Assembly: GCA_016193065.1 (NCBI GenBank) | Contig: JACPSX010000087.1 | Location: forward strand, 1-13,112 | Source of the DNA: Candidatus Tectimicrobiota bacterium | GTDB taxonomy: Bacteria > JACPSX01 | DNA: 13,112 bases | Direction: 5' to 3' | Shown: positions 1 to 11,914 of the stretch, one piece after another | How the letters are laid out: the number at the start of each line of letters is the position of its first letter | Numbering within the stretch: the first letter of the stretch is position 1 | The notes under the pieces: generated by a model | Database searches by the model: none | Told to the model about the DNA's origin: nothing | What the model saw: the letters and a program-made list of their open reading frames with translations, nothing else | Program-made: the position numbers and the translations under genes

Positions 1-420
1 ATCCACTGTGACTTCCGTGGCCATGGAGTTCGAGATCAGACAGTACTGCTTGGCTTTTTGCAGAAGCCTCCCGACCGGCTCCTGATCCTCAGGACGGGAG
101 AGCCAGACTTTGGGAGTCAGGTGAATCCGGGTCATCTTGAATTTGCCGTCAACGAATTCCAAAGTTCCCTCTGCCTGACTTTCAAACCCGATGAGGTTGA
201 CCTTGGCCTTTTCGGCCAGATAGAGGAAGGTCGTCATGAAGCAGCCGTTGGCTGAGGCGACGTAGAGGTCCTCGGGGCTCCAGAACCCCTCGGGTCCACC
301 AAACTCCGGCGGGGTGGCCACCGGCAAGTCCGGCTTTCCTGCGCTGGAGAGAAGTCCCTTCTTGCCGTCCTGCCAGTAGATTGAGGATTGGTAAACGTGA
401 GTTTTTGCCTGGATGCTCAT
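1..420 (-). CDS. OsmC-family peroxiredoxin-like protein (partial, C-terminus beyond window)
   Basis: OsmC/Ohr-type proteins reduce organic and other hydroperoxides in the cytoplasm with a pair of cysteines. The minus-strand frame opens with ATG at 420 and stays open for 140 codons to the window edge, so the C-terminal end is missing. Both family cysteines are visible: Cys60 in the context SANGCFMTTF and Cys127 in KQYCLISNSM, each at the start of a helix as expected. The start is supported by AGGAGG at 431-426, five bases upstream. The gene is divergent from the acyl-CoA synthetase gene, with a 136-base gap between the two starts. It has no obvious link to the nitrogenase-like operon beyond general redox protection. 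The family call is firm; the subfamily and substrate cannot be told. Confidence 0.88.
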   Translation of the reverse strand, partial: MSIQAKTHVYQSSIYWQDGKKGLLSSAGKPDLPVATPPEFGGPEGFWSPEDLYVASANGCFMTTFLYLAEKAKVNLIGFESQAEGTLEFVDGKFKMTRIHLTPKVWLSRPEDQEPVGRLLQKAKQYCLISNSMATEVTVD

Positions 421-497
421 GTCATCCTCCTGTCGGCTGTCCCCCTCGCCTGTAGTGAGCCCGTTTCAACCAAAAGGGTGCGCGGGAAGCAATTTCC

Positions 498-527
498 TTG
501 ACTGCAAGGCAAGGGGTTCAGTACAAG
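498..527 (+). promoter_or_regulatory. Putative sigma70-type promoter for the acyl-CoA synthetase unit
   Basis: TTGACT (498-503) and TACAAG (522-527) are separated by 18 bases. Transcription would start near 534, giving a leader of about 23 bases before ATG 557. This placement argues against the longer reading frame that opens at 413. The -10 box matches the consensus at only four of six positions, so confidence is moderate. Confidence 0.4.
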
Positions 528-556
528 AGAGAGGGGGCGGAAAAACGGGGAACCGG

Positions 557-2451
557 ATGAGAGAATTTTTCAAGCCTCGCGCTGTGGCCGTCGTCGGCGC
601 TTCCCGCGTGGAAGGCAAGGTGGGCCACAGCATCCTGCTGAATCTCCTGCGCGGCGGTTTTCCCGGAGCCATTTATCCCATCAACCCCGGTTCCCCGGAC
701 ATCCTTGGAGTCAAGGCGTATCCGGACGTCTCTGCAATTCCCGCAGAAATTGATCTGGCCGTATTGGTCATTCCCGCACCCCAAATCCTATCGGCTCTGG
801 AAGCCTGCGTGGCCAAGGGGGCCCGGGGGGCCGTCGTCATATCGGCCGGCTTCAAGGAGATCGGTGGAGAAGGAGCCGCCCTGGAGCGTGAGCTGAAAAA
901 GTGCGCCCGGGAGCTCGGGATTCGAGTCCTGGGACCCAACTGTCTTGGAGTCATCTCAACTCAGGGGCGCCTGAACGCGAGTTTTTCCCCCGGTATGCCT
1001 CCCGAAGGAGGCATCGGTTTTTTTTCTCAATCAGGAGCCCTGGGGACGGCGATCCTGGATTGGGCCGTGGGGCAGCGGATCGGGCTCTCCAGGTTCTTGA
1101 GCCTCGGCAACAAAATGGACCTCTCCGAAGTGGACGCGGTGCGGGCCATGGCCGAGGATCCGGACACGAAGGTGATCCTGGGTTATGTGGAGGGAATTGA
1201 GCAGGGGCGGGAGTTCATGGCAGCGGCCCTGGCCGCCTCCCGTAAAAAACCCCTGATCATGTATAAAGCAGGAACCACCTCGGCGGGAGCCAGAGCGGCC
1301 TCCTCCCATACGGGGGCCCTGGTGGGCTCCGACAAGGCGGTGGAGGCGGCCTTCCGGCAATCCGGGGTTTTTCGAGTATATTCTCTGGAGGACCTCTTTG
1401 ATCTGGCTCAGGCCTTCAGCTCCCAACCACTCCCCTCGGGGCCCCGCCTTTTGATCTTGACGAACGCGGGAGGTCCGGGGATCATCGCGGCCGACGCGGT
1501 CGAGAAGGCCCGGGTGGAGCTTGCCCGGCTCTCCGACGAAACCGTTGCCCGCTTGCGTCAGTTTATGCCCCCGACGGCGGCCCTTTATAATCCGGTGGAC
1601 GTCATCGGAGACGCCCGGGCGGATCGCTATCAGAAGGCGCTGGAAGTGCTGCTGCCGGACCCCGGGGTGGACGGGGTCCTGGTTCTGTTGACTCCCCAGG
1701 CAATGACCGAGATTGACAAGACCGCGCAACTTATCGGGCAGGCGTCTGCGGCCTCGGGAAAACCGATTCTGACTTCCTTTATGGGGGAGGCCAGCATGGG
1801 AGAGGCCCGCGAGATTCTACGGCGCTATCACGTACCGGACTACCCATATCCCGAAGAAGCCGTCAAGGCGTTTGAGGCGCTGGCTGTTTACCGGAGCCGG
1901 CGGGATTCTCCGAGCGAGCATCCCGTCACGTTTCCCTGCCGCGGGCAGGAGGCCAGGGAAAGGATCCGGAAGGCTCGAAGGCAAGGCAGAATCAATCTTG
2001 GAGAGTCCGAAGCCCGCTTTGTCGCCGAGGCCTTCGGTTTCCGGTTTCCGCGCAGCGTGGTCGCTCAGACGGCGGATGAAGCTGTCAACGCCGCGGAAGA
2101 GACGGGGTATCCCGTGGTGCTCAAGATCGTCTCTCCGGAGATTCTTCACAAGACCGACGTGGGTGGGGTGAAAGTCGGCCTGCGTGGCCCGAAAGAGGTC
2201 CGTGAAGGGTTCCTGGAAATCACCACCCGCGTGAGACGCCTGTTTCCCGACCCTTGCTGCTCGGAGTGCGAGGAGAGAAGCCTGCGGATCTGCAGGCCCT
2301 CGTTGAAAGCCTGCAGCGTCTCTCCCAGCTTGCTATGGAACTTCCCGAGGTTTTGGAGATGGATATCAATCCACTCATTGTCCGGCCGGCCGGAGAAGGT
2401 GCCGTGGCCATTGACGTGCGGATGTCGCTCGTCCACGAGGAGGCCCCATGA
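557..2451 (+). pseudogene. ADP-forming acyl-CoA synthetase (acetyl-CoA synthetase type), broken by internal deletion and frameshift
   Basis: These enzymes convert acyl-CoA, ADP and phosphate to acid, CoA and ATP. The order is a CoA-binding Rossmann domain (about residues 1-130; MREFFKPRAVAVVGAS), ligase domains with SQSGALG near residue 157 and the phosphohistidine motif SSHTGALVG (His251), and a C-terminal ATP-grasp domain with ILHKTDVGGVKVG. The frame from ATG 557 is normal until FPD at about 2251. The typical C-terminal sequence (LLLGVRGEKPADLQAL, then MDINPLIV) then continues in another frame to TGA 2449-2451. About 65-75 family residues that normally lie between these parts, the middle of ATP-grasp, are absent, so this is a deletion of about 200 bases (length 1 modulo 3), not a single-base slip. 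The restored frame ends in an ATGA overlap with the next gene, showing it was once translationally coupled. The unbroken frame runs on to 2542 with unrelated sequence. A mis-assembly is the main alternative. Confidence 0.8.
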
Positions 2452-3509
2452 AATCGCTATACATTGGTTCCACGGGAGATTATTCGGGAAAGACCCTGGT
2501 CACGATGGGGTTGGCGATGGCTCTGCAGAAACAGGGTTTTAGCGTCGGGTATCTGAAGCCTCTGGGAAGGCTCCCCATTGTTGTGGAAGGGGAAGCCGTT
2601 GACGGCGATGCGGAATTTCTCAAGAAGATCCTGCATCTGACGGATCCTCTGAGCCTGATCTCTCCTGTTGTCCTCACTCACGAGCTCGTCGTGCAGCACT
2701 ACAAAGGGGCTCTGCCGGATCTGCTCCCGAAGGTGGTGGCGGCCCATGCCCAGGTCTCTCGGGACAAGGACCTGGTCCTGATCGGAGGAGCCGGGAATTT
2801 CATGGGAGGGACCTTTCTGGATCTGGAGATTACCCGGGTCTGCGAGGCCCTTGCTTCCCAGGTTCTACTGGTTGATTCTTCCGATCCGCAGCGCGGCTAT
2901 GACGCGCTCTTTGTGGCGCGGGAGATCCTGGGAGACCGCCTGATCGGCGTGATCCTCAATCGGGTTTCCTCCTTACTGCATAACATGGTGGAGGAGATGG
3001 CGATTCCCTTCCTGACTAAGTCGGGGTTCCGGATCCTGGGTGTTCTCCCTCACGACCCGCTTCTTGACGCCATCACCGTAGGCCAGCTCCAGGAGCTGTT
3101 GGATGGGAAGATCCTGTGCGCCGCGGATCGACTGGATGAGCTGGTTGCCAACTTCAGCGTCGGGGCCATGGATCTGGACAAGGCCATGAGCTACTTTCGC
3201 AAGCTCCCCAACAAGGCCGTCATCACCGGAGCAAACCGTCCCGACCTGCAGCTTGCCGCTCTGGAGACAGCCACCAAATGCCTCATCCTCACCGGGAATC
3301 AATCTCCCAACGAGATCATTATTTCACGGGCCCGGGAGCTGCGGGTTCCCATCATCGTGGTCCCCTACGATACCTTCACGACGGTGGATCGGGTCGAGCA
3401 TTTCATGGGCCGGATCCGCATCCGGGAGCAGCAGAAAGTGGAGAAGGCCCGCCAGCTTCTGGAAGAGCGCCTGGACTACCGCGCTCTCCTGCAGGCGCTG
3501 CAACTGTAG
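2448..3509 (+). CDS. BioD-like P-loop protein with DRTGG domain (phosphotransacetylase N-terminal family)
   Basis: The 353-residue protein opens with a dethiobiotin-synthetase-like P-loop (GSTGDYSGKT, residues 7-16). A BioD-like fold follows to about residue 220, including LVLIGGAGNFMGG and LLVDSS strands. The C-terminal part (about 240-330) resembles a DRTGG domain (KAVITGANRPDLQLAALE), with GANR in place of the usual GDR. This pairing forms the N-terminal regulatory half of long phosphotransacetylases; here it stands alone without the catalytic PTA domain. The ATG overlaps the stop of the acyl-CoA synthetase remnant (ATGA), so the two form an operon. A role in acetyl-CoA/ATP metabolism, perhaps sensing nucleotide or acyl-phosphate levels, is inferred from this partner. 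The exact activity of stand-alone versions is not something I can state. Confidence 0.8.
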   Translation: MKSLYIGSTGDYSGKTLVTMGLAMALQKQGFSVGYLKPLGRLPIVVEGEAVDGDAEFLKKILHLTDPLSLISPVVLTHELVVQHYKGALPDLLPKVVAAHAQVSRDKDLVLIGGAGNFMGGTFLDLEITRVCEALASQVLLVDSSDPQRGYDALFVAREILGDRLIGVILNRVSSLLHNMVEEMAIPFLTKSGFRILGVLPHDPLLDAITVGQLQELLDGKILCAADRLDELVANFSVGAMDLDKAMSYFRKLPNKAVITGANRPDLQLAALETATKCLILTGNQSPNEIIISRARELRVPIIVVPYDTFTTVDRVEHFMGRIRIREQQKVEKARQLLEERLDYRALLQALQL

Positions 3510-4737: not shown

Positions 4738-4763
4738 GTTCTCAGTCACAATTGGCGGTAGTC

Positions 4764-5408
4764 ATGGAATACCAGGGTCGGTTGCAGGAAGTCCTGCGTC
4801 AGGCCGCAGCTCTCTTTTCCGAGAAAGGGTACCCGTCCGCTTCGATCCGGGACCTGTCGCGGGTTTCCGGCCGGAGCATGGCGGGCCTTTACTACTATTT
4901 CGCGGGGAAGGAGGAACTGCTCTACCGGATCTGCGCTCAAAGCCTCCAGGAGATTCTCGAGGAGCTCGACCGATCTCTACCCCAAATCGCCCCCCCTCAG
5001 GAAAAGCTCCGCTACCTCGTCGCGGTTCACCTGGACTATTTCCTCAACCACCGGGACGAGATGCGGGTCCTCTCTCAGGATTCGGAATTTCTCCAGGGAG
5101 AGCATAAGGAAAAGCTGGCTGAGCAGCAAAAGGGCTATTACCTGCTCTGTCAACAGGTGTTGCGAGAGGTTTGGGAAGAAGCCGGAAGCGGCCAGGAGAT
5201 TTCCCGAGAGGAGCTGCGGCTCTCGACCCTGGCCCTTTTCGGGATGATCAACTGGGTTTACAAATGGTACGAGCCGGGCAAGGACCTCTCCTCCAGAGAT
5301 CTTGCGGACTGGATGACGCGGTTCTTTCTGGAAGGGTACCTGGGGAGCCCAGCAACTTCTCCGTTTCCGGAACAGAGTCTCCGGGGGATCGACAGTCGGA
5401 TGGAATGA
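4764..5408 (+). CDS. TetR/AcrR-family transcriptional regulator
   Basis: The 214-residue protein has a typical N-terminal TetR helix-turn-helix: LRQAAALFSEKGYPSASIRD, then LSRVSGRSMAGLYYYFAGKE ending in EELLYRI. The rest is a helical ligand-binding and dimerisation domain with FGMINWVYKWY near residue 160, resembling the acyl-CoA- or lipid-responsive TetR subgroup, though the ligand cannot be read from sequence. The start at ATG 4764 gives the normal short arm before the first helix; an upstream TTG at 4752 is in frame but adds only four residues. It is the last gene before the nitrogenase-like operon and points the same way with a 99-base gap, so it is a natural candidate to control that operon. 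That is inference from position. Confidence 0.9.
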   Translation: MEYQGRLQEVLRQAAALFSEKGYPSASIRDLSRVSGRSMAGLYYYFAGKEELLYRICAQSLQEILEELDRSLPQIAPPQEKLRYLVAVHLDYFLNHRDEMRVLSQDSEFLQGEHKEKLAEQQKGYYLLCQQVLREVWEEAGSGQEISREELRLSTLALFGMINWVYKWYEPGKDLSSRDLADWMTRFFLEGYLGSPATSPFPEQSLRGIDSRME

Positions 5409-5507: not shown

Positions 5508-6932
5508 ATGCAATCCAGCCAGTGTCCCGGGTTTCAAGGCTACAGACTCCATTTCGACGCGCCCAGCGAGTCCTTGCGCCGGCGCATTGACGACCATCCC
5601 TGTTACAGCGAGGAAGCACATTGCTTCTTTGCCCGAATTCATCTGGCCGTGGCGCCTCGCTGCAATGTTTTTTGCAACTACTGCAACCGCAAGTTTGACT
5701 GTCCCAACGAGAGCAGGCCTGGAGTTGCCAGCACGGTCTTAAACCCGAAAGAGGCCGTGAGGCAAGTTGAACTTGTCCTGGAGAGGGTTCCCTGGACTAC
5801 GGTCGTGGGAATTGCCGGACCCGGGGATCCGCTGGCCAACCCCCAAGAATCCCTACAGACCTTCCGGCTGGTGCACCGTGAATTTCCCGATCTGATGCTC
5901 TGCCTTTCGACGAATGGGCTCGCGCTAACGGACCACCTGGATGAACTCGTCGAATTGGGGGTCAGCCATGTCACTCTCACCATCAACATGGTTGACCCGG
6001 AGGTCGGCCGGAGCATTTACTCCTGGGTGCGCTATGGAGGCATTGTGTATCGGGGGTGGGAGGGGGCTGAACTGCTTCGCATCCAGCAGATGCGGGCCCT
6101 CGAAGAGCTCCGTCGCCGGGATATTCTTACCAAGGTGAACATTGTCCTCATTCCGGAGGTCAATGACTTCCATCTCCCGGAAGTCGTCAAGGAAGTTCAG
6201 AGAAGGGGAGCTTTTCTCGTCAACGTGATCCCGCTCCTTCTGGTTCCCGGGAGCAAGTTTGAGAAGCAAGAGGTCCGGGAGCCCAGCCTGGAGGAGCGGA
6301 GAGTCATTCAGGACCTTTGTGAACGGAAGCTGGGCGTGCAAGTCATGCGTCACTGCCGCCTGTGCCGGGCTGATGCCGCCGGATTTTTGGGACAACAAGA
6401 AGAGACAAGTCCACGACCTGCCCGGACTCCGCAAGATCGGGGAGCCTTCCTGGCAGAAGCGAGACGCCGGCGTGACCGGGTGCGCCGGGTCCGGGAAGAA
6501 GTTCTCGAAACTCTCGTCGTCCTGGATGGCCGATCCCTGCGGGTGGCCGTTGCCTCTCGGGGAGGGAGGCTTGTAAACGAACATTTCGGGAGGACCCGGG
6601 AGTTTTTAATCTTTGAGGTGACCTCCGGGGCCATCCGGCTCCTGGAGATCCGGCCCGTGGCAGGATATTGCACTGGACCCCAGAGCTGCGGAGACGAACC
6701 ACAAAGTCTTAGTTCCTTGATTTCTTTGCTGAGCGACTGCCACATGGTGCTGTGCAGTCGGATCGGGCTGGATCCGGTCAAGGCTTTGAGGCAGGCAGGC
6801 ATACGTCCCGTAGAAGCTTACGGTTTCATTGACCGGGCCATCGCCGGCGCCGTCAGCGCCCACGTAGGGGTACCCGCCGGAAACTACGTCACTGCAGGGA
6901 AGGAGGTTGATGAGCCATCGGGGAATCTCTAG
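5508..6932 (+). CDS. nifB: NifB: radical SAM nitrogenase cofactor-precursor synthase with NifX-like domain
   Basis: NifB fuses two [4Fe-4S] units and inserts a SAM-derived carbide to make the 8Fe core (NifB-co) of nitrogenase cofactors. All hallmarks are present in 474 residues: HPCYSEEAH (His30, Cys32), the radical SAM triad C-x3-C-x2-C (Cys52, Cys56, Cys59), the NifB signature E-x-R-P-G (68-72), GIAGPGDPLANP, and the second cluster-binding motif HCRLCRADAAG (Cys283, Cys286). The C-terminus (about 344-455) is a NifX/NafY-type cofactor-binding domain with VAVASRGG, VNEHFG and YCTGPQSCG. The length equals classical fused NifB. ATG 5508 is preceded by agaggt at a loose spacing. It heads the operon, 61 bases before the first Fe-protein gene. 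With no NifEN in the window, its product may be used directly or matured elsewhere. Confidence 0.95.
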   Translation: MQSSQCPGFQGYRLHFDAPSESLRRRIDDHPCYSEEAHCFFARIHLAVAPRCNVFCNYCNRKFDCPNESRPGVASTVLNPKEAVRQVELVLERVPWTTVVGIAGPGDPLANPQESLQTFRLVHREFPDLMLCLSTNGLALTDHLDELVELGVSHVTLTINMVDPEVGRSIYSWVRYGGIVYRGWEGAELLRIQQMRALEELRRRDILTKVNIVLIPEVNDFHLPEVVKEVQRRGAFLVNVIPLLLVPGSKFEKQEVREPSLEERRVIQDLCERKLGVQVMRHCRLCRADAAGFLGQQEETSPRPARTPQDRGAFLAEARRRRDRVRRVREEVLETLVVLDGRSLRVAVASRGGRLVNEHFGRTREFLIFEVTSGAIRLLEIRPVAGYCTGPQSCGDEPQSLSSLISLLSDCHMVLCSRIGLDPVKALRQAGIRPVEAYGFIDRAIAGAVSAHVGVPAGNYVTAGKEVDEPSGNL

Positions 6933-6993
6933 CCAGTTAGACCGCGAAGCGAAGGTTGGGGGGCCGTAAAACAGAGAAGGGAGGTGGAGAAAG

Positions 6994-7848
6994 ATGCCGC
7001 CGGCAATGAGACAAATCTCGATCTACGGAAAGGGAGGGGTAGGAAAATCCACGGTTGCCAGCAACACCTCGGTCGCCCTGGCGGAAATGGGCCGCCGGGT
7101 CATGCAGATGGGATGTTCTCCGAAAGCCGACTCGACCTATCTGTTGTTGGGTCACATGTGTCACCCCACAGTCCTCGATCAGGTCCGGGCCAAAGGCTAT
7201 CGCAAACCCGAGTACATCGATGAGTGCCTGCAGATCGGGCACAAGGGGATCGTGTGCGCCGAGGCGGGGGGGCCCGAACCTGCTCTGGGCTGCGCGGGGC
7301 GCGGGGTTTTGTTGGTCCTGGAACTGCTGCGCAAGTATCGTCTTCCGGAAAAGCACGAGGTGGATTTCCTGGTCTTCGATGTCATTGCGGACGTGGTCTG
7401 CGGCGGGTTTGCCCAGCCCATCCGCAGGGGGTATGCCAAGGAAACCTATATTGTCACCAGCGGGGAGCTCATGGCTCTGTACGCGGCCAACAACATCTGT
7501 AATGCGGTGAAGACCATGAACGAGCTCAAGGGGGCCCAGGTTTTCGTGGGTGGGCTCATCAACAACATGCGCGGGGTTCCCGGAGAGTTGGAGTTGGTGA
7601 GGGAGTTCGGGGAGATCATCGGAGTTCCGGTGGTTGCCAACATCCCCCATTCCGATCTGATGCAGCGCGCGGAAACCCAGAAAAAGACTCTGGTGGAGAA
7701 TTTCCCGGATTCCGCAGAGGCCCAGGAATTCCGCAGCTTTGCCCAACAGATCCTGGAACCCCGGGGGATTATTCCCCAGCCGCTGGACCCCAAGGACAGT
7801 ATTTCGGTAATTCGAGACCTCCTACGGAAGTACCAGGTCTTCGATTGA
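6994..7848 (+). CDS. NifH-like Fe protein, paralog 1 (altered switch regions)
   Basis: NifH-type proteins are dimeric ATPases with one [4Fe-4S] cluster between subunits that pass electrons to a DK partner. This 284-residue copy has the P-loop YGKGGVGKST (11-20), both cluster cysteines (Cys100 in GCAGRG, Cys136 in VVCGGF) and the conserved Arg103. Two nucleotide-sensing positions differ from NifH: switch I reads GCSPKADST, with Ser42 where Asp is nearly invariant, and switch II reads DVIADVVC, with Ala132 in place of Gly. The loop before GIVCAEAGG is about ten residues shorter than in paralog 2. ATG 6994 follows GGGAGGTG by seven bases; ATG 7006 (MRQISIYGKGG) is a possible later start. Its stop is 14 bases before the paralog 2 start. 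Confidence 0.93.
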   Translation: MPPAMRQISIYGKGGVGKSTVASNTSVALAEMGRRVMQMGCSPKADSTYLLLGHMCHPTVLDQVRAKGYRKPEYIDECLQIGHKGIVCAEAGGPEPALGCAGRGVLLVLELLRKYRLPEKHEVDFLVFDVIADVVCGGFAQPIRRGYAKETYIVTSGELMALYAANNICNAVKTMNELKGAQVFVGGLINNMRGVPGELELVREFGEIIGVPVVANIPHSDLMQRAETQKKTLVENFPDSAEAQEFRSFAQQILEPRGIIPQPLDPKDSISVIRDLLRKYQVFD

Positions 7849-7856
7849 GGGAGGTG
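7849..7856 (+). promoter_or_regulatory. Shine-Dalgarno site deciding the paralog 2 start
   Basis: GGGAGGTG begins directly after the paralog 1 stop and lies six bases before ATG 7863. The same octamer precedes paralog 1 (6979-6986), suggesting matched translation of the two Fe proteins. It rules out the in-frame TTG at 7845. Confidence 0.6.
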
Positions 7857-7862
7857 AACGCC

Positions 7863-8762
7863 ATGATTGAACGATTTGAAGTCCCCAAGGAAGTGCCGCG
7901 CAAGATCGCTATTTACGGCAAGGCCGGCATTGGCAAGTCCATTACCTCCTCTCACATCAGCGCCGCCCTCTCGGAGATGGGGGAGAAGGTGGGTCTCATG
8001 CAAGTGGGCTGCGATCCCAAGCGGGATTCCATCGCCCTGCTGTGCGGGGGGATCATGCCTACAGTCCTGGAAAAGCTGCGCATGATCGAGAGCGACAGCC
8101 TGGGCGACGAAGATACGGGACCTGTGGAGCTGACCGACGTGAAACTCGACGAGGTGATCTTCTCGGGTTACAACGGCATCGTGTGCTGCGAGGCCGGGGG
8201 GCCGAGGCCGGGGATGGGCTGCGCCGGGCGCGGGGTCCTGGTAGCCATCAACATCCTGGACGAGTTCAAGGTCTACGAGCGCAACAACGTGGGGTTTGCG
8301 ATCTTTGACGTGCTGGGGGACGTGGTTTGCGGCGGGTTCGCCCAGCCCATGCGGGCCGGGCAGGCTCACGAAATCTACATCGTCACTTGCGGCGAGATTC
8401 TGGCCCTCTACATCAGCAACGAGATCATGAGAGCGGTGAACCGGATCCGCAGCGAGGGGGTCAACGTGGGGCTGGCGGGGCTCATTGACAATCAGCGCAA
8501 CGTCCCCTTCGAGAGGGAAATCGTGGAGGAGTTTGCCCGCCGCACCGGGGTTCCCGTCATTCTGCACGTGCCCAGGTCCCCCAAGGTCCAGGAGGCCGAG
8601 ATCATGTGCAAGACCGTGATCGAGGCCTTTCCGGAGTCGGATCAGGCGTTGGTCTACCGGTCTCTGGCCAGGAAAGTGTATGAGAACCAGTACATTTACG
8701 CGCCCGCACCCCTAAACGGGCTCGATGAGGTGGTTGATGTGGTCCGCACCTACATCCATTAG
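7863..8762 (+). CDS. NifH-like Fe protein, paralog 2
   Basis: This 299-residue Fe protein lies just after paralog 1 but is clearly different in sequence. It has the P-loop YGKAGIGKSI (18-27), with Ala21 for the usual second Gly of GKGG and Ile27 for Thr. Switch I is canonical GCDPKRDS (49-56), the cluster cysteines are Cys120 (GCAGRG) and Cys156 (VVCGGF), switch II is canonical DVLGD, and Arg123 is kept. It has a longer acidic loop before GIVCCEAGG (residues 73-103), nearer to the layout of NifH. Paralog 1 carries the switch changes and this copy the P-loop changes, so the two look complementary. They may form a heterodimer or serve separate steps. The next gene starts 47 bases downstream, after a palindromic spacer. 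Confidence 0.93.
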   Translation: MIERFEVPKEVPRKIAIYGKAGIGKSITSSHISAALSEMGEKVGLMQVGCDPKRDSIALLCGGIMPTVLEKLRMIESDSLGDEDTGPVELTDVKLDEVIFSGYNGIVCCEAGGPRPGMGCAGRGVLVAINILDEFKVYERNNVGFAIFDVLGDVVCGGFAQPMRAGQAHEIYIVTCGEILALYISNEIMRAVNRIRSEGVNVGLAGLIDNQRNVPFEREIVEEFARRTGVPVILHVPRSPKVQEAEIMCKTVIEAFPESDQALVYRSLARKVYENQYIYAPAPLNGLDEVVDVVRTYIH

Positions 8763-8796
8763 CCCTGAGAAATCGTTCTTCTCTGATCGATCAGGG
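8763..8796 (+). promoter_or_regulatory. Palindromic spacer between the Fe-protein and D-subunit genes
   Basis: A perfect 12-base palindrome ctgatcgatcag (8783-8794) sits here. The outer arms ccctga (8763-8768) and tcaggg (8791-8796) can instead form a hairpin over the whole spacer. No T-run follows, so full termination is unlikely. It could be a processing or partial attenuation point giving more Fe protein than DK, as known for nifH-nifD spacers, or a protein-binding site. Confidence 0.35.
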
Positions 8797-8809
8797 GAAA
8801 GGAGGAGAG

Positions 8810-10450
8810 ATGAACTGGCCTGTCTGTGACCAAGTCATGCCATGGGATAAGGTGGATCGCACCCGGGAGCCCTGGGAGATTGCCCGGGACTACCTGGAGA
8901 TGCGTGCCAAGAAACAGTTTGAGATCGTCACCTTCAGGGATTTGCTGGAGAAGACGGAAGACACGGCAGCCTCGGACTGGTGGGAAAAAATCGTCCCCGG
9001 ATACGGCAGCGGGCTCTGGTGCCCCGCTTATTATTCGATCCAGACCTGGGCCGGGTTGCCCAACTCCGTCGTGGTCTTCCACGGACCGACCCACTGCGTT
9101 TCCGCGGCCCGCTTTTTCCAGATCTCCTACGGCGGCGGCGGGGGCGGAAGCTACTACTGGGGCGGTCCGTTCTGTTTTGTCCCCAGCACGGAGATGAACG
9201 AGCGGGACGCGATCCTTGGGGCTCCCGAGAAGCTCAAGAAAGCGATCCTGGAGATCGATGCAGTGGCCAAGCCGGAGATCATCATCGTGGCGCCGGCCTG
9301 CGCCCCCAGCATGATCGGAGAGCCCATGGAGGAGGTCATCGAAGACGTGCGGGGGCAGATTCAGTCCGAGATCATCTTCGTGGATGCGCCGGGGTTTAAG
9401 TGCATTGACGAAGGAGACATGATCCGGTTGGTCACCAGCAAGTACTGCACCGACTTAATGGAAGAACCCAAGACCAAGGACAAAGGGGCGGTCAATGCGG
9501 TGGGGGATTGGCGCACAAGCGCCTGGGAGGAGCGCTACGGCGTCAAGTGCAATTTCCCAACGGCCTACGATGAGCTGAACAGGATCCTCAAGAGGATGGG
9601 CCTCAAGCTGAAGACGGTTCTGCCGCAGGCCCCGCTGGCGGACATCCGGCGGGCTCCCGAGGCGGAGTTCAACGTCTGCACCTGCCCCATGTTTGCCTAC
9701 CCGATCTGCGAGGAGATGAAAGCCAAGTTCGGTGTCCCGTACAGCAACCACGTGTACCCCCTGGGGATAGAAGCAACCCGAAACTACATCATGGCCATCG
9801 CGGACTTCTTCGGCAAACAAAACGAGGCGGAAGCTCTCCTACGGGAGGAGTTTGGGAAGCTTCAGCCCTTGTGGGACGAGGCCAGGAGAAAGATCGCCGG
9901 CAAGGTGGCCCTCATGGATTCTTCCATCGCCATGACTTCCGTGAACCGGCAGATGGGTTATGCACGCATGCTCATCGAGTTGGGGATCGAGGACGTGATC
10001 TTCTTCAACATCGCCCCCTCGGAAGTTCTGGGCCGCAGGGAAGGGGTCGAATACTACCTGAGCCAGACGATCAATGGAGTTCCCTACAACCCCAAGTTCC
10101 TCTGGTGGCCGGCTCCCCACGCCATCAAGTTAAGTCCTGTGGAGGTCATGGAATTCCTGGGCTTGAAGCCGCAAGATGTCCTCTACCTGTACGGAGATCT
10201 GGGGTGGTATGCCAAGGCTCCCGACATCGATCCCGCCAACACGGCCCAGGTGCAATCGGGGATCCACTGGCGCAGGCGCCGCAACGTGTGCTCCCGGTCC
10301 ATCTTCTTTAGCGGCATCCGGGGGCTCTTGCGGGACATCATCAATGCGGTGAATACTTCTAGCCGCGGCAGGAACTTCACCCTCTATGGCCGGGTCATCG
10401 GGGAGTGGGCCATTGGGGATGGGGCTGCCGGAGCTGCGGAAAGGGGGTGA
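8810..10450 (+). CDS. NifD-like catalytic subunit of a nitrogenase-like reductase
   Basis: This 546-residue protein has the nitrogenase component 1 fold. Three P-cluster-type cysteines align with those of NifD: Cys71 (GLWCPAYY), Cys96 (HGPTHCVS) and Cys164 (APACAPSMIGEPMEEV). By hand alignment, Cys292 (TCPMFAYPICEEMKAKFGVP) matches NifD Cys275, the FeMo-cofactor ligand. Residues aligning with NifD Gln191 and His195 are Glu201 and Ile205, and no clear equivalent of the cofactor ligand His442 is seen; His486 and Cys494 are nearby candidates. A glycine run (GGGGGGS, 108-114) follows the second cysteine, in the segment that borders the cofactor pocket in NifD. This argues against N2 reduction while keeping a cofactor site. 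ATG 8810 follows AAGGAGG; the K gene starts six bases after the stop. Confidence 0.9.
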   Translation: MNWPVCDQVMPWDKVDRTREPWEIARDYLEMRAKKQFEIVTFRDLLEKTEDTAASDWWEKIVPGYGSGLWCPAYYSIQTWAGLPNSVVVFHGPTHCVSAARFFQISYGGGGGGSYYWGGPFCFVPSTEMNERDAILGAPEKLKKAILEIDAVAKPEIIIVAPACAPSMIGEPMEEVIEDVRGQIQSEIIFVDAPGFKCIDEGDMIRLVTSKYCTDLMEEPKTKDKGAVNAVGDWRTSAWEERYGVKCNFPTAYDELNRILKRMGLKLKTVLPQAPLADIRRAPEAEFNVCTCPMFAYPICEEMKAKFGVPYSNHVYPLGIEATRNYIMAIADFFGKQNEAEALLREEFGKLQPLWDEARRKIAGKVALMDSSIAMTSVNRQMGYARMLIELGIEDVIFFNIAPSEVLGRREGVEYYLSQTINGVPYNPKFLWWPAPHAIKLSPVEVMEFLGLKPQDVLYLYGDLGWYAKAPDIDPANTAQVQSGIHWRRRRNVCSRSIFFSGIRGLLRDIINAVNTSSRGRNFTLYGRVIGEWAIGDGAAGAAERG

Positions 10451-10456
10451 GGAGAA

Positions 10457-11833
10457 ATGCCGGTCATCGAGAAAAAAATGCGCACGGCGAACGACGCGTT
10501 CCAGCCCAGCGCCATGATGGGAGCCGTCCTGGCCCTGTCGGGAATCGAGGGCGTGGAAATCGCCTTTCACGGGCCTTCGGGGTGTTACACCATTGCTGGG
10601 CACTATCGCACCGATCAGGCCCCCATGGGAGTCTATTCCTCCATGCGTCCCAGTGGAGTAACGGAAGACAATCTGGTCATGGGGACCAGCATGGAGAAGC
10701 TGAGCCAGCTCATCAAGTTCATGAAGATGACCTTCAAGAAGGACCGCTCGCGGCTGTTCGCGATCGTCAACACGGACTCTACGGCGATCACGGGTGATGA
10801 CATCTTGGGCGCGGCGCGGCGCTTCGAGAAGGAGATGGGGTTTCCCGCCATTGCGGTAGATGCCCCTGGATTCAAGGGGTGGGACGTGGTGGGATATGAC
10901 CTTTCCTACCGGGCCTTGCTCGGGAAGTTTGCCCCCGGGGATTCCTTGGCGAAGATTCCCGACAGCGTCAACATCATCGCCCCCTATATGCTGCACTCCC
11001 AGAACTGGATCTTCGACTTCGAGGAGATCAGGAGCCTCTTGGCCAGACTGGGAATCCGGATCAACTGCGTTCTCACTCGAAATACCCGCATCGAGGACAT
11101 CAAAAACTTCAGCGCGGCCCAGTGGAACCTGCACCTGAGCGCCGAGGATTTTCCAAGCTTCCAGAAGGAGGCCGACCGGCTGGCGGTGCCCTCTTTCGGC
11201 GCGGATCTCCCCTTGCCTTACGGGATCGCCAACACGGAGGCCTGGTTCCTGGGGGTGGCCCGGCAGTTCGGCAAAGAGGAGAAAGCGCGAGAAATCCTGA
11301 CCGAGGACAGCAAGCGGGTCAAGTCCATCCTGGGGTTCAACTACACTTACACCTGGCTGGCGAACCTTCTGATGCAGAAGAGGGTGGCGGTTATCGGCCG
11401 CGAGAAGTTTGCCGCCAGCATCGCCCGCGCGCTGTTCTACGACTTCGATGCCTATCCCGACGTGGTAATCCTCCAGGGTTCCGGCCGCTCTGCCTTTGAA
11501 CGCTCCAAGGCCCTGCTGGCGGACATTGAAAAGGACGGGTATTCCGTCAAGATCATGGAGAACCCGTCCTATATCGAAGTGGCCCGCCTGATCCAGGAGA
11601 GCGAGGTTGACTTCGTCATCGGCTCCCGGATCGAGAAGCCGCTCATCGAGGGGATGCGGTTCCCTCACCTGAGCCTGGGGAGCGCAGGCTACTTCCAGAG
11701 CTTCCGGTTTGTCCCCTACCCCTATGTGGGCTACAACGGGGTCCTCTACCTTCTCCAGGAGTTGGGGCTGGTGATGCACGACATGATGACCGAGAAGGAG
11801 ATGTGGCGAGGCCTGCGCTTCAAGAACATTTGA
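10457..11833 (+). CDS. NifK-like subunit of a nitrogenase-like reductase (reduced P-cluster ligand set)
   Basis: The 458-residue partner shows the NifK layout: FQPSAMMGAVLALSGI, HGPSGCYTIAGHYR, TDSTAITGDDILGAARRFEK, a conserved DAPGFKGWD segment, and a C-terminal Rossmann domain (RVAVIGREKFA; FVIGSRIEKPL). It lacks the long N-terminal extension of NifK. Of the three NifK P-cluster cysteines only one is kept, Cys43 (NifK Cys95). Phe15 aligns with Cys70, and Asp107 or Ser108 with Cys153. Together with three cysteines in the D subunit this gives a 3+1 set that suits a [4Fe-4S] cluster, as in chlorophyllide oxidoreductase, better than an 8Fe P-cluster. The start is preceded by ggtgaggag. It is the last gene of the operon and is followed by a strong terminator. 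Confidence 0.9.
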   Translation: MPVIEKKMRTANDAFQPSAMMGAVLALSGIEGVEIAFHGPSGCYTIAGHYRTDQAPMGVYSSMRPSGVTEDNLVMGTSMEKLSQLIKFMKMTFKKDRSRLFAIVNTDSTAITGDDILGAARRFEKEMGFPAIAVDAPGFKGWDVVGYDLSYRALLGKFAPGDSLAKIPDSVNIIAPYMLHSQNWIFDFEEIRSLLARLGIRINCVLTRNTRIEDIKNFSAAQWNLHLSAEDFPSFQKEADRLAVPSFGADLPLPYGIANTEAWFLGVARQFGKEEKAREILTEDSKRVKSILGFNYTYTWLANLLMQKRVAVIGREKFAASIARALFYDFDAYPDVVILQGSGRSAFERSKALLADIEKDGYSVKIMENPSYIEVARLIQESEVDFVIGSRIEKPLIEGMRFPHLSLGSAGYFQSFRFVPYPYVGYNGVLYLLQELGLVMHDMMTEKEMWRGLRFKNI

Positions 11834-11860
11834 ATCCGAACGGCCCCGTGGGCCCGCGCC

Positions 11861-11914
11861 AGACCCTGTCCGGGAGACCCGATTCGGGACATCCCGGGCA
11901 GGGTCTTGCTTTTT
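11861..11914 (+). terminator. Intrinsic terminator of the nitrogenase-like operon
   Basis: Arms 11861-11874 (agaccctgtccggg) and 11893-11906 (cccgggcagggtct) pair over 14 bases with a single G-U. The loop contains a second small hairpin (cccga/tcggg). The tail is tgcttttt. It lies 27 bases after the K-subunit stop. Confidence 0.88.

Follow-up and report, generated by a model that had tools for sequence, protein, structure and literature searches.

A nitrogenase-like nifB-H1-H2-D-K operon with two paired Fe proteins: a probable NifB-dependent reductase

Introduction

The nitrogenase superfamily offers several described systems against which to place the five-gene operon nifB-H1-H2-D-K considered here, which occupies positions 5508-11833 of a 13,112-base stretch (the window) comprising one entire contig of a Candidatus Tectimicrobiota metagenome-assembled genome (MAG; 2.9 Mb, 86% complete). 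The closest solved structures, by sequence profile for D and by fold for K, are those of the methylthio-alkane reductase MarBHDK of Rhodospirillum rubrum (PDB 9FMG/9D9U). MarDK holds an [Fe8S9C] cluster without homocitrate and uses it directly, and in MarD a histidine from a clade-specific loop acts as the second cofactor ligand (PMC12552129). Mar and the window have in common a radical S-adenosylmethionine (SAM) B protein together with H, D, and K, as well as the equivalent of NifD Cys275; Mar differs in its single Fe protein, its full six-cysteine P-cluster, its other active-site residues, and the separate clades to which its D, K, and H proteins belong.

More distant systems share some of these attributes. 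NifEN, which is itself catalytic when bound to the L-cluster (PMC13245594), resembles the window in its three-plus-one cysteines at the P-cluster site and its L-cluster cysteine. The window, however, lacks a NifHDK client, falls outside the NifE and NifN clades, encodes two Fe proteins, and bears Asp at the K Cys153 site. With NifDK, VnfDK, and AnfDK the window shares the two-component fold, NifB, and the cofactor cysteine; unlike them, its K lacks two P-cluster cysteines and its D lacks His195 and the NifD His442 motif. A nitrogenase that does without NifEN has been described (PMC11573651). The dark-operative protochlorophyllide and chlorophyllide a oxidoreductases (DPOR/COR; BchLNB, BchXYZ; group V) are alike in fold, and a four-ligand [4Fe-4S]-type relay is a plausible further likeness, whereas the window adds NifB and the cofactor cysteine, scores below the BchN/B/Y/Z cut-offs, and separates in the tree. 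Relative to CfbCD, the window proteins fall below the CfbC and CfbD equivalog cut-offs. Finally, the isethionate reductase IsrBHDK has the same B-H-D-K content and likewise four cysteines at the P-cluster site in all, of which IsrD keeps one and IsrK three, with no Cys275 and an IsrB that is not NifB-like (PMC11423573); in the window the distribution is reversed, three in D and one in K, and the Cys275 equivalent is kept.

We interpret the operon, with moderate confidence, as encoding a member of the nitrogenase superfamily: a self-contained reductase of two components, driven by ATP, that would pair a NifB-type [Fe8S9C] cluster with an asymmetric H1-H2 Fe protein. A reading of the DNA letters alone (the original prediction) had proposed five collinear genes ending at a strong terminator, a complete NifB, two Fe proteins, no NifEN, and an enzyme that has kept neither the full P-cluster nor His195, and each of these proposals held up in the analyses below. 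Beyond that prediction lie an old, co-inherited, and twice-fused H1/H2 pair, a fixed Asp39-to-Ser difference between the two proteins, and a stepwise loss of P-cluster cysteines.

The operon and its relatives

The five genes are intact and collinear on the plus strand, without internal stops, and the H1 and H2 reading frames overlap by 4 nt (Table 1). Downstream of K lies a stable hairpin followed by a T-run; a promoter scan returned nothing above chance level. Within the MAG there is no PF00148 (D/K-type) protein besides D and K, no further strong NifH relative besides H1 and H2, and no second NifB. The single NifB scores 505.7 bits against TIGR01290, passing the equivalog cut-off of 343.65. 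Compared with 31 other NifB proteins, it agrees at all 35 of the conserved columns tested, among them Cys52/56/59 and Cys32, 65, 132, 283, and 286, and because of this agreement an [Fe8S9C] product of the NifB type would be expected.

Table 1. Coordinates of genes, candidate ligand sites, and other features of the operon within the window
Feature	Position	Strand	Evidence
NifB, 474 aa: radical SAM domain and C-terminal NifX-like domain	5508..6932	+	PF04055 and PF02579; TIGR01290
Fe protein H1, 284 aa, GCSPK type	6994..7848	+	PF00142, 290 bits; H1 clade 100/99
H1 Ser42 codon, at the NifH Asp39 position	7117..7119	+	Ser in 8/8 H1
Fe protein H2, 305 aa, GCDPKRDS type	7845..8762	+	PF00142, 281 bits; H2 clade 100/98
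H2 Asp57 codon, NifH Asp39 equivalent	8013..8015	+	Asp in 8/8 H2
D subunit, 546 aa, NifD-like	8810..10450	+	PF00148, 7e-50; MarD profile match; AlphaFold2 fold
D Cys71 = NifD Cys62, P-cluster ligand site	9020..9022	+	Invariant across NifD, NifE, Mar-like rows, and window clade
D Cys96 = NifD Cys88	9095..9097	+	13-row alignment
D Cys164 = NifD Cys154	9299..9301	+	13-row alignment
D Cys292 = NifD Cys275 / MarD Cys270, cofactor ligand	9683..9685	+	Invariant in 13 rows
D His486 in clade-specific C-terminal insert, candidate second cofactor ligand	10265..10267	+	Conserved in 8/9 window/G388-group D rows
K subunit, 458 aa, NifK-like	10457..11833	+	PF00148, 3e-57; AlphaFold2 fold, best match MarK
K Ser18 at the NifK Cys70 site, ligand lost	10508..10510	+	Alignment
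K Cys43 = NifK Cys95, only K cysteine ligand kept	10583..10585	+	Alignment
K Asp107 at the NifK Cys153 site	10775..10777	+	Alignment
Terminator-like hairpin and T-run downstream of K	11858..11914	+	-41.2 kcal/mol; z -5.4 vs shuffles

A scan of genome contigs with concatenated D and K, in which the query came down to only six low-degeneracy peptides, yielded no relative; relatives emerged from a second scan that used an H1-specific motif alignment. The same five genes stand in the same order on the complete chromosome of a Ca. Eisenbacteria (CP070702.1) and on a Ca. Cloacimonadota MAG contig whose ends cut NifB and K, with identities to the window of about 60-63% for D and K and about 70% for H1 and H2. 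Since this order recurs in both, the arrangement is neither chance nor misassembly. The Eisenbacteria chromosome encodes no component-1 protein beyond the D and K of the operon, thus neither NifDK nor NifEN, and no strong NifH relative other than those of the operon. Because this chromosome is complete, draft assembly cannot explain why NifEN and NifDK are missing. The original prediction had suggested a search of genomes for the B-H-H-D-K order, which was rewarded here, and had named a NifEN/NifHDK set elsewhere in the genome as a sign that D and K are assembly scaffolds; neither the MAG nor the Eisenbacteria chromosome contains such a set.

The operon is rare, occurring in one of 47 genomes of the Eisenbacteria phylum and one of 147 of the Cloacimonadota set, while a D homologue at E < 1e-25 is found in 8 of 294 genomes of the class to which the Chloroflexi genome G388 (NC_groundwater_653) belongs. 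This patchy distribution suggests horizontal spread. G388 itself has D and K genes scattered over five loci (L190-L194), six of D and three of K; two of the D genes stand alone without K, and the genome adds one H1-H2 pair and a lone related H. One paired reductase that serves several catalytic units in that genome would fit a diversification of substrates.

Two Fe proteins from an old duplication

Against the NifH model TIGR01287, H1 and H2 reach about 300 bits, below the cut-off of 394. In a tree of 47 Fe proteins that included ten H1 and ten H2 rows (the fused protein of G442 was not placed), the H1 clade is supported at 100/99, the H2 clade at 100/98, and the joint split of H1 and H2 from other Fe proteins at 100/99; joining H1 with MarH-like rows is rejected (p 2e-4). 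On this topology, H1 and H2 are the products of one old duplication and not recent copies. The pair occurs in the order H1 then H2 in ten genomes, namely those of the window, the Cloacimonadota, and the Eisenbacteria, G388, G389 (L147), G041, G320, G453 (at two loci), G086, and G442. The topologies of the H1 and H2 clades largely match, and the genes are adjacent at every paired locus found. In two of these genomes they are fused in the same order, into proteins of 584 aa (G086, L095:4415-6169) and 591 aa (G442, L232:4265-6040, minus strand).

The two partners differ at the position of NifH Asp39, which lies in switch I near the nucleotide and whose change affects complex dissociation. The residue is Ser in 8 of 8 H1 proteins, Asp in 8 of 8 H2 proteins, and Asp in 12 of 12 NifH proteins; two further pairs and the G442 fusion agree, and both fusions have Ser39 in the N-terminal half and Asp39 in the C-terminal half. 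Because unpaired relatives with Asp39 (L225, L234) sit near the H1/H2 split, the comparison suggests that Ser39 is the derived state. Other hallmarks are kept in both proteins: Lys10, Lys15, Asp125, Asp129, and Cys132 by column, and a GCxG motif that contains the other cluster cysteine. To our knowledge, every nitrogenase-type Fe protein whose make-up is established is a symmetric homodimer, and no description of a paired H1/H2 or heterodimeric Fe protein was found in the open-access literature searched. It is the pairing of the Fe proteins that comes as a surprise here.

Other arrangements of Fe proteins came to light in the same material. Related D-K-H-B operons at L226, L227, and L229 (G594, G616, and G725) have six P-cluster cysteines and a single Fe protein, which falls outside the H1/H2 clade. 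At two loci an Fe protein is fused to a D-like domain, in products of 739 or 724 aa (L196:1153-3372, minus strand, and L062:5961-8135), with a second component-1 protein adjoining. In gut Clostridia loci, among them L100, L114, and L150, distant component-1 proteins are flanked by two Fe proteins of the GCDPK type; these belong to another group than H1/H2.

Cluster ligands and the placement of D and K

When D is aligned with NifD-like, NifE-like, and Mar-like proteins (13 rows in all), C71, C96, C164, and C292 are invariant. The window retains four of the six P-cluster cysteines, three in D and one in K. The NifK Cys153 site holds Asp in the window, L098, L099, and L193, and Cys in L103, L190, L224, and all K proteins of the outer sister operons. 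P-cluster cysteines number six in L225, L226, L227, L229, L230, and L231, five in L103, L190, and L224, and four in the window, L098, L099, and L193. Judging from this series of six, five, and four across the clade and its neighbours, the P-cluster site has been reduced stepwise within the group and has come to resemble NifEN, with its three-plus-one cysteines, by convergence. At the active site, NifD His195, Gln191, and the His442 motif are absent from window D, and Mar Trp195 and Phe199 are not found at the aligned sites. Arginines follow the conserved His486, as may be compared with the Arg428-His429 loop that anchors the cluster in Mar, in a loop where alignment and model are unreliable.

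D and K exceed the PF00148 gathering cut-off and H1 and H2 that of PF00142, identifying them as component 1 and Fe protein of the nitrogenase superfamily. All four fall below every nif, anf, vnf, bch, and cfb NCBIfam cut-off, so that these are superfamily-level matches. By the terms of the original prediction, a place for D and K inside MarDK or another characterised clade would have counted against it. In our trees each sits in a 100/100 clade with Cloacimonadota, Eisenbacteria, and Chloroflexi homologues, outside MarDK, NifDK, NifEN, and the other sampled clades, and a topology that unites the window clade with core Mar is rejected by the approximately unbiased (AU) test (p=0.010 for D, 4e-5 for K). 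The DPOR/COR rows (BchNB/YZ) were labelled by NCBIfam. Candidate CfbD rows, Methanomassiliicoccales proteins whose label NCBIfam did not confirm, are also separate. As far as the same open-access literature extends, D and K constitute a clade new within the superfamily.

A profile search with D finds MarD (9d9u_A) as its best PDB match, at 6e-51. The AlphaFold2 model of D (predicted local distance difference test score, pLDDT, 69) matches component-1 folds at Z of about 25, and that of K (pLDDT 76) has MarK (9d9u_D) as its best match at Z 32.1, followed closely by BchB and others. Frame damage as the source of the divergent C-terminus of D was considered and ruled out, for L098 and L099 carry the same C-terminal sequence.

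A proposed mechanism and its rivals

In the reading that we favour, NifB would make a cluster of the [Fe8S9C] type, which would be loaded directly into DK, without NifEN, homocitrate, or a heterometal, and be held there by D Cys292. H1 and H2 would form one asymmetric Fe protein, most likely a heterodimer whose partners share a [4Fe-4S] cluster and whose two ATP sites are unlike, Asp39 being absent from that of H1. Electrons would move on to a cluster at the former P-cluster position; with three D cysteines, one K cysteine, and additionally Asp as candidate ligands, this is probably a [4Fe-4S] like that of NifEN. From it they would reach the active-site cluster, where a small substrate, probably other than N2, would be reduced by a modified form of the energy-driven nitrogenase mechanism. 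We propose further, more tentatively and with rather less than even confidence, that an obligate heterodimeric Fe protein with unequal ATP sites can serve several diverged DK units per cell, each having its own substrate and an [Fe8S9C] cluster made by NifB, and that the P-cluster became a four-ligand [4Fe-4S] in the branch of the window. The six D and three K genes that accompany one H1-H2 pair in G388 fit such a shared reductase.

Several observations weigh against this proposal. G450, G442, and one G388 paralogue lack His486, and confidence in the D model falls below 50 around it, which leaves the second cofactor ligand no more than a candidate. Ser replaces the cofactor cysteine in two D-like proteins (L052:11049-12362 and L224:1339-2880, both minus strand). 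The D proteins of paired-H systems do not form one clade, so that some reassortment between H pairs and DK modules has taken place. Cluster content is beyond what AlphaFold2 models can show. The cysteines for homodimer clusters persist in both H1 and H2, which may be two homodimers with different tasks. What the two Ser-bearing proteins otherwise share is the paired Fe protein (in G086) or membership of the clade. Monophyly of D across all paired-H systems was itself rejected (AU p=0.018), and a single vertically inherited unit is not claimed.

Separate specialised homodimers are the main rival to the heterodimer, which is the simplest reading. Electron donation would then fall to H2, whereas H1 would be a maturase, helping to load or mature the clusters in place of lost NifEN functions. 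NifH has maturation roles, the Walker lysines and both cysteine motifs of the [4Fe-4S] bridge persist in each protein, and loss of Asp39 from H1 could disable turnover and spare a carrier role. Two same-order fusions, constant adjacency, and largely matching topologies nevertheless favour a physical 1:1 unit, and we regard two homodimers as unlikely, if still a serious contender. We are more doubtful that the operon encodes a divergent Mar with the same C-S bond-breaking chemistry. MarD and MarK lead the profile and fold matches, the gene content is the same save for the second H, and the Mar active site contains [Fe8S9C]; the rejected joins of D and K to core Mar and of H1 to MarH-like rows, the two P-cluster cysteines lost from K, and the missing Mar Trp195 and Phe199 all speak against it.

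The cysteine pattern that D and K share with NifEN, three in D/E and one in K/N plus the L-cluster cysteine, could also denote a cluster-assembly scaffold instead of a catalyst, and NifE is among the best NCBIfam matches, far below cut-off. Such a scaffold would find no client, as neither the complete Eisenbacteria chromosome nor the MAG encodes another component-1 protein. The trees place D and K apart from NifE and NifN, and the ligand loss is derived inside the clade, the sisters keeping six cysteines; we consider it improbable, and more so than a divergent Mar. Least credible of all is an unusual N2-fixing nitrogenase with an Fe-only cluster. NifB and the cofactor cysteine are present, and L-cluster proteins can act on N2, both in vitro and inside engineered E. 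coli (PMC13245594). Against this stand the absent His195, Gln191, and NifD His442 motif, the incomplete P-cluster, the lack of nifE/N (nifV was not searched), and scores of D, K, H1, and H2 under the NifDK and NifH NCBIfam cut-offs.

Implications

How the two ATP sites of the Fe protein are coupled to electron transfer is a long-standing question. A natural H1-H2 pair in which Asp39 is gone from one partner would allow each ATP site to be tested separately, without engineered hybrids. The stepwise dismantling of the P-cluster site, with the cofactor cysteine mostly kept, bears on the relations among P-cluster, NifEN-like, and nitrogenase-like enzymes. The clade may also extend NifB-dependent reductases past the reduction of N2 and thioethers.

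Gene neighbourhood

The original prediction had ventured a C-S, C-N, or C-X bond as substrate, for which the neighbouring genes give no support: they include no conserved partner and show a weakly recurrent acyl-CoA theme. The window has an acyl-CoA synthetase and a TetR_C_24 regulator, the Eisenbacteria locus ACAD/ETF genes, L193 ACAD/AMP-ligase/ECH genes, L225 two TetR_C_24 regulators with AMP-ligase/ECH genes, and L227 an acyl-CoA synthetase. No substrate is drawn from these neighbours, as no adjoining gene is conserved and such genes are common in these genomes; the acyl-CoA neighbourhood, counted without a background rate, is only a lead.

In the window, the TetR regulator (4752-5408) lies directly upstream of nifB, and at L225 the two TetR_C_24 regulators lie upstream of the D-K-H genes. 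The acyl-CoA synthetase of the window (413-2542) is of the NDP-forming kind; its ATP-grasp domain ends at profile position 94 of 221, and its 3′ end looks frameshifted. The paired-H operon of G389 (L147/L195) is flanked by two CN_hydrolases, a DHO_dh/Fer4 protein, and an arginase-family protein, which are not shared by the other loci; the neighbours at L195 hint at a nitrogen-compound pathway there.

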